DNA of 64,000 nt from contig NZ_SOAU01000001.1 of assembly GCF_004364865.1 (NCBI RefSeq), positions 2,574,001 to 2,638,000 on the forward strand, in the 5' to 3' direction. Position numbers and translations under genes: made by a program. The stretch is from Ilumatobacter fluminis (GTDB lineage: Bacteria; Actinomycetota; Acidimicrobiia; Acidimicrobiales; Ilumatobacteraceae). Below the pieces are notes generated by a model. That model ran no database searches and had not been told where the DNA came from. It worked only from the letters and a program-made list of their open reading frames with translations. Of the stretch, positions 915 through 55,704 are shown in pieces (the stretch's first letter is position 1; each line of letters starts with the position of its first letter).

Positions 915-3104
915 ATGCGGGGGAAGATTGCAGGACTGCTGGCTGTCGCGTGCGTGTTCACGGCGTGCTCGGGTGACGACGACCAGGCGACGACGGCGAC
1001 GAGCGAGTCGACGGACACGACGGACACGAGCGAGTCATCGGGCGAACCGGCGCCGTCGGTCGCACCGCCGACCACCGAGGTGAGCGAATCGACCGCCACC
1101 ACCACCGACACCACCACCGTCGCCACCATCGCGCCCCCGACCACCGAGCCGAGCGGTCCGTCACCGTCGCCCGCCGACGCCGACCTCGTCGCCGCCATCC
1201 AGGCCGATCTCGACGGCGCACCCGCCGGCTGCGATCCGCTCGATCCCCGCCAGTGCGTGTTCCCCTACCCGTCGAACGCGACGACGGCCGGCGACGACAC
1301 GTCGGCAACCGGACTCCGGGTGGCGTTCCCGACCGATGGCTTGCCGGCGAACAGCGAGGGCGTGCACATCGACCCGGCCGAATGGAACCGCAACGACGGC
1401 TTCTCGCCGAACTCGTCGATCCTGACCCACGTGCCGGGCCTCGACGCCGAGGCATCGTCGCTCCCGCGCTGGGACGACCTGGAGGGATCGCTCTCCGACG
1501 AGGCGACCGTGGTGATCGTCGACGATGCCGGCGAGCGGGTCGCGCTCTGGGCCGAACCCGACGTCGACGTCACCGGCCCCGACGACGAGGTGCTCGTGAT
1601 CCATCCGGCTGTCTCGCTCGAGGAAGGCCGCCTCTACCACGTGGCCCTCCGCGGCCTCGTCGACGGCACAGGCGCCACGATCGACCCATCGGCGACGTTC
1701 ACGTCGTATCGCGACGCGCTCACCACCGAGATCGACGAGATCGAGCGACGGCGCCCCGACATGGAGGCGATGTTCGACGACCTCGCCGCGGCCGGCATCG
1801 CCCGTGACGATCTCCAGCTCGCCTGGACGTTCACGGTCGCCTCCACCGAGAACATCACCGGACGCATGCTGCACATCCGCGACGAGACACTCGCCGAGCT
1901 CGGCGACGCGGCACCGACGTTCACGGTGACCGACGTGATCGAGCCGCCCGAACTCGATCGTGACGGGCTGGCGCGCCAGATCGTCGGCACGTACACGGTC
2001 CCGAACTGGTTGACCGGCGACGGCGGCCCGGGCAACCGGTTCGAGACCGGCGCCGACGGGCTCCCCGTCCGCAACGGCACCGTCGAGGCGCCCTTCGTGT
2101 GCAACGTGTCCGACACGACCATGAACGGCACCGAGCCCGCACACATCGTCCAGTACGGCCACGGCCTGCTCGGCAGCAACTTCGAGATCAACGCCGGCAA
2201 CGTGCGGGCGATGTCGAACGAGCACGACGTGGTCCACTGCGCGACCAAGTGGGCCGGCATGAGCGAGGACGACATCGGCAACGCCGCCAGTGTGCTGACC
2301 GAGGTGTCGGCGTTCCCGACGATGGCCGACCGGCTCCAGCAGGGCGTGTTGAACCAGATCGTGCTCGGCCGGCTGATGCTCGCCGACGACGGCCTCGTCG
2401 CCGATCCGGCGTTCGCGAGGCCCGACGGATCGCCGCTCATCGACCACACGACGCTGTACTACGACGGCAACAGCCAGGGCGGGATCATGGGCCTGATGCT
2501 GGCCGGCGTCTCGCCCGACTTCGAGCGGGCGGTGTTGGGCGTGCCCGGCATGAACTACTCGATGCTGCTCCCCCGCTCGGTCGACTTCGACACGTACGAA
2601 GCGATCATGACGCCGGCCTACCCGAGCACGCTCGACCGGATGCTCACCATCTCGCTGATGCAGATGTTGTGGGACCGCGCCGAGGGCGCCGGCTACGTGC
2701 GCCACGTGGTGAGCGATCCGCTGCCCGGCACGAACGCCAAGGACGTCCTGATGCACGTCGCGTACGGCGACCACCAGGTGACCGAACTGTCGGCGCTCGT
2801 GCAGGCGCGCACGATGGGCGTCCCGATCCACCGCCCGATCGCTGCCGACGGCCGCTACCCGGGCGATCCGGCGTGGGGGCTCGACGACGCGATCGACGGA
2901 GTCTCGACGTCGGCGATCGTCATCTGGGACTCCGGCATGGCCCCCATCCCGTTCGAGGCGACGGCACCGCGCGAGGGCGACGACTCGCACGAGGATCCCC
3001 GAGCCGACCCCGACGCCAGGGCCCAGAAGGCCGCCTTCCTCTTCGACGGCGAGTACGTCGACATCTGCAACGGCGCCCCCTGCACCGCCGACCACGTCGA
3101 CTGA
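915..3104 (+). CDS. secreted lipoprotein with alpha/beta-hydrolase-like domain
   Basis: 729-residue exported protein. The start is placed at ATG 915 because it begins a lipoprotein signal peptide with lipobox FTAC (Cys18). The frame is open far upstream but only as a shadow of corA. After Cys18 comes a Thr/Ser/Pro/Asp-rich linker (about 20-90), typical of surface lipoproteins in this window, then a large domain. The motif GNSQGG at about residues 518-523 fits the nucleophile elbow G-x-S-x-G of alpha/beta hydrolases, with Ser520 as candidate nucleophile; a conserved-looking HGLLGSN lies upstream and could supply the oxyanion hole. This resembles large bacterial lipase/esterase-like lipoproteins. 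Substrate is unknown. It converges on the Lrp gene with a palindrome between. Confidence 0.75.
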   Translation: MRGKIAGLLAVACVFTACSGDDDQATTATSESTDTTDTSESSGEPAPSVAPPTTEVSESTATTTDTTTVATIAPPTTEPSGPSPSPADADLVAAIQADLDGAPAGCDPLDPRQCVFPYPSNATTAGDDTSATGLRVAFPTDGLPANSEGVHIDPAEWNRNDGFSPNSSILTHVPGLDAEASSLPRWDDLEGSLSDEATVVIVDDAGERVALWAEPDVDVTGPDDEVLVIHPAVSLEEGRLYHVALRGLVDGTGATIDPSATFTSYRDALTTEIDEIERRRPDMEAMFDDLAAAGIARDDLQLAWTFTVASTENITGRMLHIRDETLAELGDAAPTFTVTDVIEPPELDRDGLARQIVGTYTVPNWLTGDGGPGNRFETGADGLPVRNGTVEAPFVCNVSDTTMNGTEPAHIVQYGHGLLGSNFEINAGNVRAMSNEHDVVHCATKWAGMSEDDIGNAASVLTEVSAFPTMADRLQQGVLNQIVLGRLMLADDGLVADPAFARPDGSPLIDHTTLYYDGNSQGGIMGLMLAGVSPDFERAVLGVPGMNYSMLLPRSVDFDTYEAIMTPAYPSTLDRMLTISLMQMLWDRAEGAGYVRHVVSDPLPGTNAKDVLMHVAYGDHQVTELSALVQARTMGVPIHRPIAADGRYPGDPAWGLDDAIDGVSTSAIVIWDSGMAPIPFEATAPREGDDSHEDPRADPDARAQKAAFLFDGEYVDICNGAPCTADHVD

Positions 3105-3129
3105 CCCACCCGCCCCCAGCCCGCCCAAT

Positions 3130-3170
3130 GCGTGAACAAACTGCGGAATAGTTCCTCAGTTTGTTCACGC
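3130..3170. repeat. 41-bp palindromic element, copy 1
   Basis: Arms GCGTGAACAAACTGCGGAA (3130-3148) and its near-complement (3152-3170) surround the 3-nt loop TAG; 18 of 19 positions pair. A second, perfect copy lies at 33558-33598. Both copies sit between converging genes. No T-run follows on either strand, so it is not a textbook intrinsic terminator, although a bidirectional terminator role is possible. Short ORFs starting inside it are artefacts of the repeat. Confidence 0.85.
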
Positions 3171-3190
3171 CTTCGTCGGGTCGTGGGTGG

Positions 3191-3634
3191 TCAGGGGCGG
3201 ACGACTCGGAGGAGGAGTTTGGTCTCGGTGCTGGCGACGCCGGCTTCGGAACGGAGCCAGCGCACGAAGGTGTCGAGTCCGTCAGCGCCGTGGCAGGCGA
3301 CATTGATCGAGTAGTCGGCGGTGCCGGTGACGTAGGCCGCAAAGGTGACCTCGTCGCGCTGGGCGAGTCGGGCCTCGAACTCCTCGACGTCGCCCGGGCC
3401 GAGCTTCACGTCGACCACCGCCTGCACCGTGCGACCCAGGGCATCCGGGTCGACCCGGACGGTGTAGCCCTCGATGACGCCGTCACGTTCGAGACGGCGC
3501 ACGCGATCGGCGGCCGACGTCGGCGACAGATGCACGGCCTCGCCCAGCTCCCGCCAGCTGATTCGTGCGCCTCGTTCCAGCTCACGCAGAATTCGGAGGT
3601 CGATTTGGTCGAGAGCACTCGATTCGGCGGCCAT
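3191..3634 (-). CDS. Lrp/AsnC-family transcriptional regulator
   Basis: 147-residue regulator of the leucine-responsive family. An N-terminal winged helix-turn-helix (about 8-60, containing DLRILRELE and SPTSAADRVRRLERDGVI) is followed by a RAM ligand-binding domain (about 65-140). Family members sense amino acids. It is transcribed away from an alanine dehydrogenase gene, with 62 bp between start codons, which is the usual arrangement of AldR-type regulators controlling ald. The inference is that it activates or represses alanine catabolism in response to alanine. No distinct operator could be picked out by eye in the 62-bp gap. Confidence 0.9.
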   Translation of the reverse strand: MAAESSALDQIDLRILRELERGARISWRELGEAVHLSPTSAADRVRRLERDGVIEGYTVRVDPDALGRTVQAVVDVKLGPGDVEEFEARLAQRDEVTFAAYVTGTADYSINVACHGADGLDTFVRWLRSEAGVASTETKLLLRVVRP

Positions 3635-32644: not shown

Positions 32645-33040
32645 ATGAGTGAAATAACGAAGACGACCCAACGAGACGACGAGCGGCTGAGCGAGATGTT
32701 CGCAGCCTTGGCGAGCACGACGCGACGCCGGATGCTGCAGCGGCTCGCCGAGGGCGAGGCGACGGTCAACGAACTGGCCGAGCCGTTCGACCTGTCGCTG
32801 CCGGCCGTGTCGAAGCACGTCAAGGTGCTCGAACACGCCGGTCTCATCACCCAGGGCCGTCGCGCCCAGTACCGGCCGTGCACGATCAACCCCGACGCGC
32901 TCCGCATCGTCGCGTCGTGGACCGAGCACTACCGCCGCCTCTGGGACGACCGCCTCGACCGCATGGACGACTACCTCGCCGCCCTCTCCCCCGCCACCGA
33001 CGATCACCACCGCGACAACGACCAGGAGCAACCGACATGA
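32645..33040 (+). CDS. ArsR-family winged-helix regulator
   Basis: 131 residues. Winged helix-turn-helix of the ArsR type: FAALASTTRRRMLQRLAEGEATVNELAEPFDLSLPAVSKHVKVLEHAGLI, then a C-terminal helix with several His residues (EHYRRLW, DDHHRDND). No metal-binding CxC typical of ArsR/SmtB sensors, so this is the non-metal subgroup commonly found in front of SRPBCC (AHSA1-like) genes. It overlaps that gene by four bases (ATGA). Likely autoregulatory. Confidence 0.92.
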   Translation: MSEITKTTQRDDERLSEMFAALASTTRRRMLQRLAEGEATVNELAEPFDLSLPAVSKHVKVLEHAGLITQGRRAQYRPCTINPDALRIVASWTEHYRRLWDDRLDRMDDYLAALSPATDDHHRDNDQEQPT

Positions 33041-33534
33041 GCAACAGCGACACGGCACCCGCCGTCATCATCACCCGGACCTTCGAGGCACCGATCGACA
33101 CCGTCTGGTCGATGTTCGCCGAGGCCGAACACTTCGGTGCCTGGTACGGCCCGCAAGGCGCCGAACTCGAGGTGCAGCGCTTCGAACCCGAACCCGGCGG
33201 GGACCGATTGGTCTGCATGCGGATGCCGACGCCGCAGGGCACCCACGAAATGTGGTTCACCGGCGAGTTCGTCGAGCTCGACCCACCGACGCGCCTCGTC
33301 TACACCGAGTCGGTCTGCGACGCGACCGGTCGCGTCCTCACCGCAACCGAGATGGGTATGCCCGAGGGCGCTCCGACGACCACGCGAGTCGTCGTCGACC
33401 TCACGAGCGTCGGGTCCGAGGCCGACGGTTCGACACAGCTGACCCTCACCCACGAGGGCATTCCCGCCGGCTCCCCCGGCGAGATGGGTTGGCAGATGGC
33501 TCTCGACAAGCTCGCCGCCCGCCTCACCCCCTAA
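33037..33534 (+). CDS. SRPBCC-family (AHSA1-like) protein
   Basis: 165 residues forming a START-like lipid/ligand-binding fold: ITRTFEAPIDTVWSMFAEAEHFGAWYGPQGAE, GTHEMWFTGEFVELDPPTRLVYTES, TQLTLTHEGIP, and GWQMALDKLAARL at the end are the standard landmarks of the activator-of-Hsp90 ATPase 1-like group. Function of bacterial members is mostly unknown; some bind small hydrophobic molecules. The ATG lies inside the ArsR stop, so the pair is translationally coupled, a widespread actinobacterial arrangement. Ends at a palindromic repeat facing a convergent gene. Confidence 0.9.
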   Translation: MSNSDTAPAVIITRTFEAPIDTVWSMFAEAEHFGAWYGPQGAELEVQRFEPEPGGDRLVCMRMPTPQGTHEMWFTGEFVELDPPTRLVYTESVCDATGRVLTATEMGMPEGAPTTTRVVVDLTSVGSEADGSTQLTLTHEGIPAGSPGEMGWQMALDKLAARLTP

Positions 33535-33557: not shown

Positions 33558-33598
33558 GCGTGAACAAACTGCGGAACTATTCCGCAGTTTGTTCACGC
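33558..33598. repeat. 41-bp palindromic element, copy 2
   Basis: Perfect inverted repeat: arm GCGTGAACAAACTGCGGAA (33558-33576), loop CTA, complementary arm (33580-33598). Compared with the copy at 3130-3170 the loop is the reverse complement and the single mismatch of copy 1 is absent. It lies 23 bp after the SRPBCC stop and 42 bp before the end of the opposing enoyl-CoA hydratase gene. No poly-T tract. Confidence 0.88.
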
Positions 33599-33640: not shown

Positions 33641-34453
33641 TCAGTCGGCGAAGTTCGGAGCTCGCTTTTCCATGTTGGCCATGACCGACTCGACCTGGTT
33701 CGGGGAGCCGATCTGTTCGCCGATCAGGCGGCGCTCGAGTTCGAACTGCTCGGCGGCGCTCTCGTCGAACAGGTGCTTGAACGCCGTCTTGGCACCACGC
33801 ACCGCACCGGGGCTCCGACCGGCGATCTCGCGAGCGAGCGCCATGGCGTCCTCGTACGGCGTGTCGGACAGGCGCGTGACGAGACCGAGGTCGTACGCCT
33901 CGCGCCCGCCGACCATGCGTGCCGTATAGGTGAGTTCGCGAGCGACGTCTTGGCGGACGACCTTGCTCAGCATGAACGTGCCGGTCATGTCGGGCACCAG
34001 ACCCCAGTGCACCTCACGCACCGACCACTTGGTGTCGGGGTGCGCGATGCGGATGTCGGCGCCCAGCGCGATCTGCAGACCGCCGCCGAGGGCGTGTCCG
34101 TGCACGGCGGCGATCACCGGCATCGGCAGCTCTTCCCACACCCAACAGACCTGCTGGCCGAGGTGCGTGATGCGACCGTCCTCCATCGCGCCGGGGTTGC
34201 CACGGTCGTTCTCCCCGCCGGCGCCGTTGCCGCCGGCCATGTCGCCGAAGATCGAGAAGTCGAGTCCGGCGCAGAACGACTCACCGTCGCCCACGAGCAC
34301 GACGGCACGGACGCCGTCGGCGGTCTTGAGCGACTCGCCCGCTTCGGCGATCGCAGCGAACTGCTCGCGGTCGAGGGCGTTGCGCTTGTCGGCCCGGTTG
34401 AAGCGGACCTCGGCGATGCCGTCGTTGATGGTGACGATGACGCGATCAGACAT
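33641..34453 (-). CDS. enoyl-CoA hydratase/isomerase family protein
   Basis: 270-residue crotonase-fold protein. ATG 34453 gives MSDRVIVTINDGIAEVRFNR, the standard N-terminus. The oxyanion-hole segments are present as SFCAGLDFSIFG and HGHALGGGLQIALGADIRIA. The second glutamate typical of classical hydratases is not obvious (VHWGLVPDMTGTF), so it might be a hydratase, isomerase or thioesterase-like member. Acts on acyl-CoA thioesters in the cytoplasm. The neighbouring methyltransferase is on the same strand, 56 bp upstream. Confidence 0.88.
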   Translation of the reverse strand: MSDRVIVTINDGIAEVRFNRADKRNALDREQFAAIAEAGESLKTADGVRAVVLVGDGESFCAGLDFSIFGDMAGGNGAGGENDRGNPGAMEDGRITHLGQQVCWVWEELPMPVIAAVHGHALGGGLQIALGADIRIAHPDTKWSVREVHWGLVPDMTGTFMLSKVVRQDVARELTYTARMVGGREAYDLGLVTRLSDTPYEDAMALAREIAGRSPGAVRGAKTAFKHLFDESAAEQFELERRLIGEQIGSPNQVESVMANMEKRAPNFAD

Positions 34454-40002: not shown

Positions 40003-40044
40003 CGGCGAGCAGCATCACGAACGGGTCGCACAACGGCCCGGTCC

Positions 40045-40089
40045 GACGCCGGGTTCGGTGGGGAGCGATCCCTCACCGGACCCGGCGTC
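40045..40089. terminator. strong bidirectional hairpin after aconitase
   Basis: Left arm GACGCCGGGTTCGGTG followed by GGGA, loop GCGA, then TCCC and the complementary arm ending CCCGGCGTC; one mismatch plus one bulged base in about 20 pairs. It sits between the converging aconitase and PAP2 genes. There is no T-run, as is common for GC-rich actinobacterial terminators. Confidence 0.75.
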
Positions 40090-40190
40090 GTTGCGTCCCG
40101 GTTGCGAGCCAGTTCAGCCACGGCGCCCTGTGACGGGCACGGCGATGCGCACGGTCTGCGCGGGAGGTCGAGCTTCGGGTGGTGACGCGA

Positions 40191-55658: not shown

Positions 55659-55704
55659 CTGCGCCCCGACTCGGTCTCCCTACCAGAACCGGGCCGGGGC
55701 GCAG
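55659..55704. terminator. bidirectional hairpin between MBL hydrolase and PhoX-like gene
   Basis: Arms CTGCGCCCCG (55659-55668) and CGGGGCGCAG (55695-55704) pair perfectly; the interior also allows GGT/ACC pairing. It lies between two converging genes, 20 bp after one stop and 3 bp before the other, and probably terminates both. Confidence 0.8.

Follow-up and report, generated by a model that had tools for sequence, protein, structure and literature searches.

Concerted evolution of a dispersed 41-nt palindrome family in Ilumatobacter fluminis and its association with a predicted AbiEi-Vsr-like nuclease gene

Since the discovery of REP elements it has been asked how short palindromes disperse yet remain identical within one genome, and RAYT transposases are the main enzyme proposed. 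In the portions of the literature drawn on here, the nearest known kind to the family described below is that of the REP/RAYT systems (PMC3733652, PMC8266576, PMC8049555), with REP sequences defined by an unpaired GTAG or CGTC tag at one end (PMC3733652). Such "REPtrons", in which REP/REPIN sequences accompany RAYT (TnpA-REP), resemble our family in consisting of short, dispersed intergenic palindromes with genome-specific subfamilies and in having the enzyme gene placed between palindromes. In our case, however, no GTAG/CGTC tag is seen, the copies are fewer and of a fixed length of 41 nt, and the flanked gene encodes an AbiEi-Vsr-like nuclease rather than a Y1 HUH transposase. Enterobacterial palindromic units are said to have been found by Gilson and colleagues in the 1980s at equivalent sites in two species with differing consensus, a case of concerted evolution, and we know of no cognate nuclease proposed for them; in the present family, by contrast, the outer boxes are retained and the inner part is exchanged.

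Two protein systems are also relevant. EDxHD/Vsr-type homing endonucleases, such as the mobile intron protein 3r3p, combine a nuclease domain possibly distantly similar to ours (a weak match, E 0.33) with a DNA-binding domain, and they are the source of the model of spread by cutting and repair copying; cutting in our system is a prediction, and our gene is not seen in an intron or intein but is flanked by palindromes that also occur as dispersed solo copies. AbiEi antitoxins of type IV toxin-antitoxin systems (6y8q; Rv2827c, 1zel) share the fold of the N-terminal ~200 residues of the protein (Foldseek E 2e-6) and bind inverted repeats, whereas here the AbiEi part is fused to a nuclease domain. 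The open-licence literature yielded no description of the palindrome or of a nuclease-palindrome link, which is weak evidence of absence.

The window, the whole 64-kb stretch of DNA that was analysed, lies in the single 4,775,416-bp contig (C1) of the source genome (Ilumatobacter fluminis, G000), and its longest close inverted repeats are two 41-nt palindromic elements, to which no strand is assigned. Copy 1 (3130..3170) comprises a left outer box GCGTGAAC (3130..3137), a 19-nt core (3141..3159) that together with the triplets at 3138-3140 and 3160-3162 forms the species-specific part, and a right outer box GTTCACGC (3163..3170); it is preceded by an AAN flank, here AAT (3127..3129), with the counterpart CTT at 3171-3173. 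Copy 2 (33558..33598) has the same left box at 33558..33565, a core at 33569..33587 between triplets at 33566-33568 and 33588-33590, and the same right box at 33591..33598. The boxes are taken from an alignment of 82 distinct elements, in which the left one is nearly invariant. Upstream of copy 1 is a plus-strand gene (954..3104) whose stop lies 25 bp before the element, and a convergent minus-strand gene (3191..3634) ends 20 bp past it; the corresponding genes at copy 2 are 33037..33534 (plus strand, stop 23 bp before) and 33641..34453 (minus strand, end 42 bp past). Both sites are orthologous in relatives: the orthologue of the upstream gene of copy 1 adjoins an element in a related species (L081), and orthologues of the gene convergent on copy 2 do so in two (L129 and L111).

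The preliminary description had reported two 41-bp palindromes at these positions, each between convergent genes and with mutually reverse complementary loops, and all of this is confirmed, the centres being TAG in copy 1 and CTA in copy 2. It had also given both the same 19-bp arm; pairing is perfect in copy 2 (19/19), and one correction applies to copy 1, whose right arm reads CTGAGGAA and leaves one mismatch (18/19 pairs). RNA folds of the two copies reach -27 to -34 kcal/mol (z -8 to -11), with a hairpin that is stable on both strands. Rfam at gathering score gave no match in the window, and a role as uptake sequence was rejected on the grounds that exact matches of the flank-plus-box motif in the window are confined to the two elements. 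Unrelated hairpins occupy other convergent gaps of the window at 40044-40090 and 55659-55704.

Across the 4.78-Mb genome we collected at least 37 copies, each 41 nt long and built from the outer boxes GCGTGAAC/GTTCACGC, variable triplets and a 19-nt core; this count, from a seed search followed by looser patterns, is a lower bound that may miss more degenerate copies. The genome contains 24 forward and 23 reverse matches of the seed GTGAACAAACTGNGGAA and none of its reversed control, in agreement with the earlier judgement that chance is implausible, and the dispersed element of about 45-50 bp then envisaged measures ~47-51 bp when the AAN..NTT flanks are included. By type, 29 sites are A (the window type, with AAACTGCGGAA arms), seven are B (TTTGCGCAC-like arms) and one is C. 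All 37 stand beside or between called genes, as short, dispersed and mostly intergenic palindromes of the REP kind do. Confinement to convergent gaps, a pattern that the preliminary description had put forward for checking, does not hold, with 18 sites in convergent, 14 in tandem and five in divergent gaps (promoter regions), yet convergent gaps are over-represented (odds ratio 5.5, P 1.3e-5, against 205 background gaps of at least 50 bp, 30 of them convergent). Nor is the family a mere pair of copies unrelated to gene ends: a stop codon lies within 50 bp of 32 of the 37 copies, the stop is nearer than the start in 13 of the 14 tandem cases, and some genes have their stop codon inside the element (AAN GCG TGA). 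Genes were called with our own codon-usage script, so single gene boundaries may be off.

Elements also occur as close pairs in this genome, five against 0.41 expected (P 1.5e-4), and four of the five enclose unrelated genes. Generic gene cassettes of the attC type, which such pairs might suggest, were rejected, as only the nuclease pair described below recurs in other genomes and the remaining gene content is unrelated. The R boxes of integron attC sites follow the consensus RYYYAAC / GTTRRRY, which the outer box CGTGAAC does not fit by eye. One of the pairs (G000:C1:482295-483217) encloses a luciferase-like monooxygenase gene, and G003 has one element after the orthologue of the left neighbour with no such gene called.

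The layout is conserved among the 82 distinct elements, which come from six genomes: outer box GCGTGAAC is followed by a variable triplet and a TGCG-containing core, and the mirror image of this half lies beyond three central bases. Pairing is retained in 93.1% of cells, and both sides have changed in 183 cells compared with 71 in shuffles. The alignment excludes one element with a TCGTGAAC-type core and a GCGTGAAC left box (L101:137), and TCGTGAAC-type elements that start with TCGT (L122:6124, L138:7024) were kept out of the element counts. MITEs combine terminal inverted repeats with a target-site duplication and a transposase supplied in trans; the present element is an inverted repeat, and site comparison revealed no target-site duplication or clean empty site. 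Nested-insertion intermediates are not supported (20 extra boxes against 32 expected). Among 10 genomes of the genus, no zero-length insert between GCGTGAAC and GTTCACGC was found, and shorter inserts occur at four places, one each in G000, G003, G009 and G002. As candidate collapsed sites these were rejected, the first three being unlike element remnants by eye and the G002 place being a 40-nt element-like copy.

The outer-box pattern matches 10 of 61 genomes, our own included, and two or more matches are found in this genus only. Forward counts are 31 in G000, two in G001, 12 in G002, 18 in G003 (at least one of these being a non-palindromic chance match) and 21 in G004. A scan of a species-level genome collection returned 76 stretches, nearly all from such genomes; two of the stretches (L073 and L117) look like chance matches; the element-carrying relatives are recorded as Ilumatobacter, Ilumatobacteraceae, Acidimicrobiaceae or Actinomycetota. 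Viral contigs gave no match, leaving a viral origin unsupported.

Judged by neighbouring genes, many sites are the same in related species, and 24 site pairs were tabulated, some with weak flank alignment. Two further pairs (1464795/L115 and 2432581/L097), whose flanks fail to align on both sides, were for that reason excluded from the permutation test and from the tables of 18 and 24 pairs. At seven sites orthologous between G000 and G003, the inner 25 nt are 0.646 identical, compared with 0.650 in shuffled pairings, and at 11 sites orthologous between G000 and G004 the values are 0.560 and 0.562; within G000, inner identity among those same sites is 0.966-0.986. The outer boxes are 0.98-1.00 alike both within and between genomes. 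At the pair 4620127/4621196, G000 and G004 have the odd base of the inward outer boxes in common, and the inner 25 nt differ in both copies. The elements thus evolve in concert at fixed sites, the outer boxes being kept and the inner 25 nt swapped for each species' own version. One G003 site (L086, corresponding to G000 site 2173170) is a mosaic that retains the old triplet on one side only, and replacement can therefore stop inside the element.

The pair 4620127/4621196 lies outside the window and encloses a gene for an AbiEi/Vsr-like nuclease (C1:4620172-4621107, given without strand), with an AbiEi_4 domain and a weak REase_MTES_1575 match. The odd end GTTCATGCGTT of this pair is repeated, again facing inward, in two further close pairs whose enclosed genes are unrelated (right ends of G000:C1:135770 and 482295). 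All five element-rich genomes have the nuclease gene flanked by palindromes, on both sides in G000, G004, G002 and G068 and on one side in G003, where the contig ends. Neighbouring genes of the locus agree among G000, G004 and G003; none matched for G002 and G068, the test being weak for G068 because few genes were called at that locus. Homologues at E 1e-20 or better occur in 49 of 149 genomes searched. Two genomes with no element match (G007 and G009) have no homologue, and G001 and G008 have homologues of 41-42% identity only.

The association extends to the homologues and is well supported. Such a palindrome stands beside all eight of the closest (at least 64% identity, that of G003 partial), with GCGTGAAC boxes in five and GCGTGAGG or GCGTGAGC in G005, G006 and G105, and 41-nt CCGTGAGC palindromes accompany homologues of 44-45% identity in G027 and G084, the latter having two more ~6.6 kb away. 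When 250 bp upstream was compared with 250 bp downstream at the 47 of 50 homologue loci with enough flank, an exact 12-mer or longer was common to both flanks in 41, compared with 42 of 577 random genes (from G000, G019, G021 and G084), and a 14-mer or longer in 35, compared with nine of 577; six homologues have no common 12-mer. Dispersed cognate palindromes are few in the other genomes sampled, with one in 334 kb in G006 (a variant box), two beyond the unit in 244 kb in G084, one in 400 kb in G019 and none in the 400-kb sample of G021. The nuclease tree gives no resolution of whether box type follows the protein. A second AbiEi/Vsr-like gene of G000 (40% identity, within C1:2901500-2903600, L234) has GATTAAATCGACCAGG repeats on both sides, and similar GATTAAATCGACCAGG-bearing repeats bracket a transposase-like gene (C1:1788300-1789199, in L186, 1788040-1789199); palindrome bracketing is therefore not unique to nucleases.

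The product is predicted to combine, in one fused protein, a DNA-binding winged-helix domain of the AbiEi type with a nuclease domain of the Vsr/DUF559 (PD-(D/E)XK-like) kind. Residues 1 to ~200 resemble a two-domain AbiEi, with a winged helix and a second domain (Foldseek 6y8q E 2e-6, 1zel 7e-5; Pfam AbiEi_4 E 1.4e-8; PADLOC AbiEi E 2.2e-13 over residues 6-150), and AbiEi_4 is found in 33 of 47 homologues. The last hundred residues match MTES_1575 in 39 of 47 (E up to 0.01) and DUF559 in 10 of 47, with the G000 protein itself scoring 23.6, below the Pfam cut-off of 38.2. R138, E206, D238, H256 and D265 are invariant among the homologues and E249 is conserved, PDB sequence matches to the nuclease part are weak (3hrl E 0.26, 3r3p E 0.33), and the predicted model is poor there because only three sequences could be used. 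In the sections of two papers cited here, EDxHD/Vsr-like nuclease domains are joined to DNA-binding domains in homing genes (2025; PMC12350094) and DUF559 is linked to Vsr-like nucleases (2026; PMC12907096).

Three observations, namely the gene between its palindromes, the dispersed solo copies and the exchange of whole cores at long-occupied sites, are most simply accounted for by cutting or nicking by a cognate nuclease followed by repair from another copy. We therefore favour, at a probability of about 0.58, a REP-like family spread and homogenised by the AbiEi-Vsr-like nuclease and tolerated as hairpins at gene ends. The window palindromes would be non-autonomous copies associated with the gene at C1:4620172-4621107. 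Its protein may recognise the palindrome via the outer boxes and TGCG motifs, much as AbiEi proteins bind inverted repeats, and would then nick or cut it; repair from another copy would overwrite the inner 25 nt and homogenise the set within each genome, and from time to time a copy may be placed at a new intergenic site. Near stop codons a strong bidirectional hairpin may do no harm, or may help by forming RNA 3' ends for both strands, and copies would be retained at such places. We entertain more tentatively, at somewhat under even odds, a broader proposal of a new class of selfish element, in which an AbiEi-Vsr nuclease gene within its own palindromes spreads and rewrites dispersed 41-nt palindromes via cutting and repair copying, each nuclease lineage having its own palindrome code (NCGTGARN boxes in closer relatives) and the whole genomic set being re-edited when the code changes. 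A nuclease family usually bracketed by its own repeats would offer a second, directly testable route to palindrome spread. It would also assign a role to proteins currently named AbiEi or DUF559 and provide a natural example of the joint rewriting of tens of sites at fixed positions, and it points to a little-known type of DNA that spreads itself.

In the main rival account the AbiEi-nuclease is a regulator or a restriction-like factor that binds the palindromes, the sites tracking its changing specificity by point mutation and selection with nothing being copied. AbiEi proteins bind inverted repeats in the promoters of their own genes (PMC7319586), the palindrome upstream of the gene would act as an operator, and a layout of box, spacer and box is consistent with such sites, the spacer being variable and the triplets (positions 9-11) having the lowest pairing, 0.66-0.72. 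The unpaired and apparently function-free features common to many copies argue against it: in the Sva-07 elements of G068 (30, L101:137 among them), the triplets do not match in 23, the same AAG/TTC combination recurs in 11 and the central triplet is common to 29. The downstream copy and the bias toward 3' ends are also unlike operators, and the mosaic site (2173170 vs L086) retains one old triplet. We regard this account as unlikely.

We consider it improbable that homogenisation is passive, through hairpin-induced template switching or very short ectopic gene conversion, with the nuclease gene as a passenger. The outer boxes could serve as microhomology, and the mosaic L086 agrees with replacement that can end within the element, but this leaves unexplained why the flanks of one gene family match in 41 of 47 homologues and why one relative, G068, has two such nucleases with two matching palindrome families. 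The second nuclease of that genome (58%) adjoins a TCGTGAAC-type 41-mer, and elements of this type are also present on other contigs (L122, L138 and, with a hybrid left box, L101). Copying by reverse transcription (retron/DGR) was rejected, with no RVT_1 match in G000, whose copies are the most homogeneous at the sites compared.

Mobilisation of ordinary REP-type repeats by a RAYT (HUH tyrosine) transposase, the enzyme that the preliminary description had proposed to look for, appears quite improbable. The repeats are palindromic, intergenic and species-specific, and Y1_Tnp/RAYT-like genes are present in eight of 10 genomes of the genus, G000 included; yet the palindrome is absent at all eight loci inspected (of 11 matches), several of which have GGTCAGACC- or GTCAGAC-type palindromes instead, and the G004 match is interrupted by a TAG stop. 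The listed flanks of the elements show no unpaired GTAG or CGTC tag, the ends reading AANGCGTGAAC..GTTCACGCNTT on both sides, and G000 has a second, REPIN-like family of five inverted doublets of GGGGTCAGACCCC. These doublets, 56-57 bp apart, lie at G000:C1:2468194, 3265919, 3669891, 4372540 and 4419706. The GGTCAGACC palindrome, related to the GGGGTCAGACCCC family, has 37 copies in G001 and adjoins RAYT genes in G001 and G004.

That the copies are bidirectional transcription terminators retained by selection, with no mobile element involved, is very improbable: the proximity to stop codons (32 of 37), the convergent enrichment, the stable RNA hairpin on both strands and the occurrence of hairpins with stem score of at least 10 in 10 of 28 convergent gaps (elements included) vs two of 51 divergent ones would suit it, but five of the 37 copies lie in divergent promoter regions, and identical stems at ~29 sites, species-wide replacement and the flanking of the nuclease gene are left unexplained. 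An intrinsic terminator was rejected at both window elements, where no T run (U-tract) follows the hairpin.

Two intergenic sites of G000 that hold an element, C1:3991953 and 2252978, hold a palindrome of another type in relatives (G003/G004 and G005/G006, respectively), as though these places were attractive to, or tolerant of, hairpins of either family.
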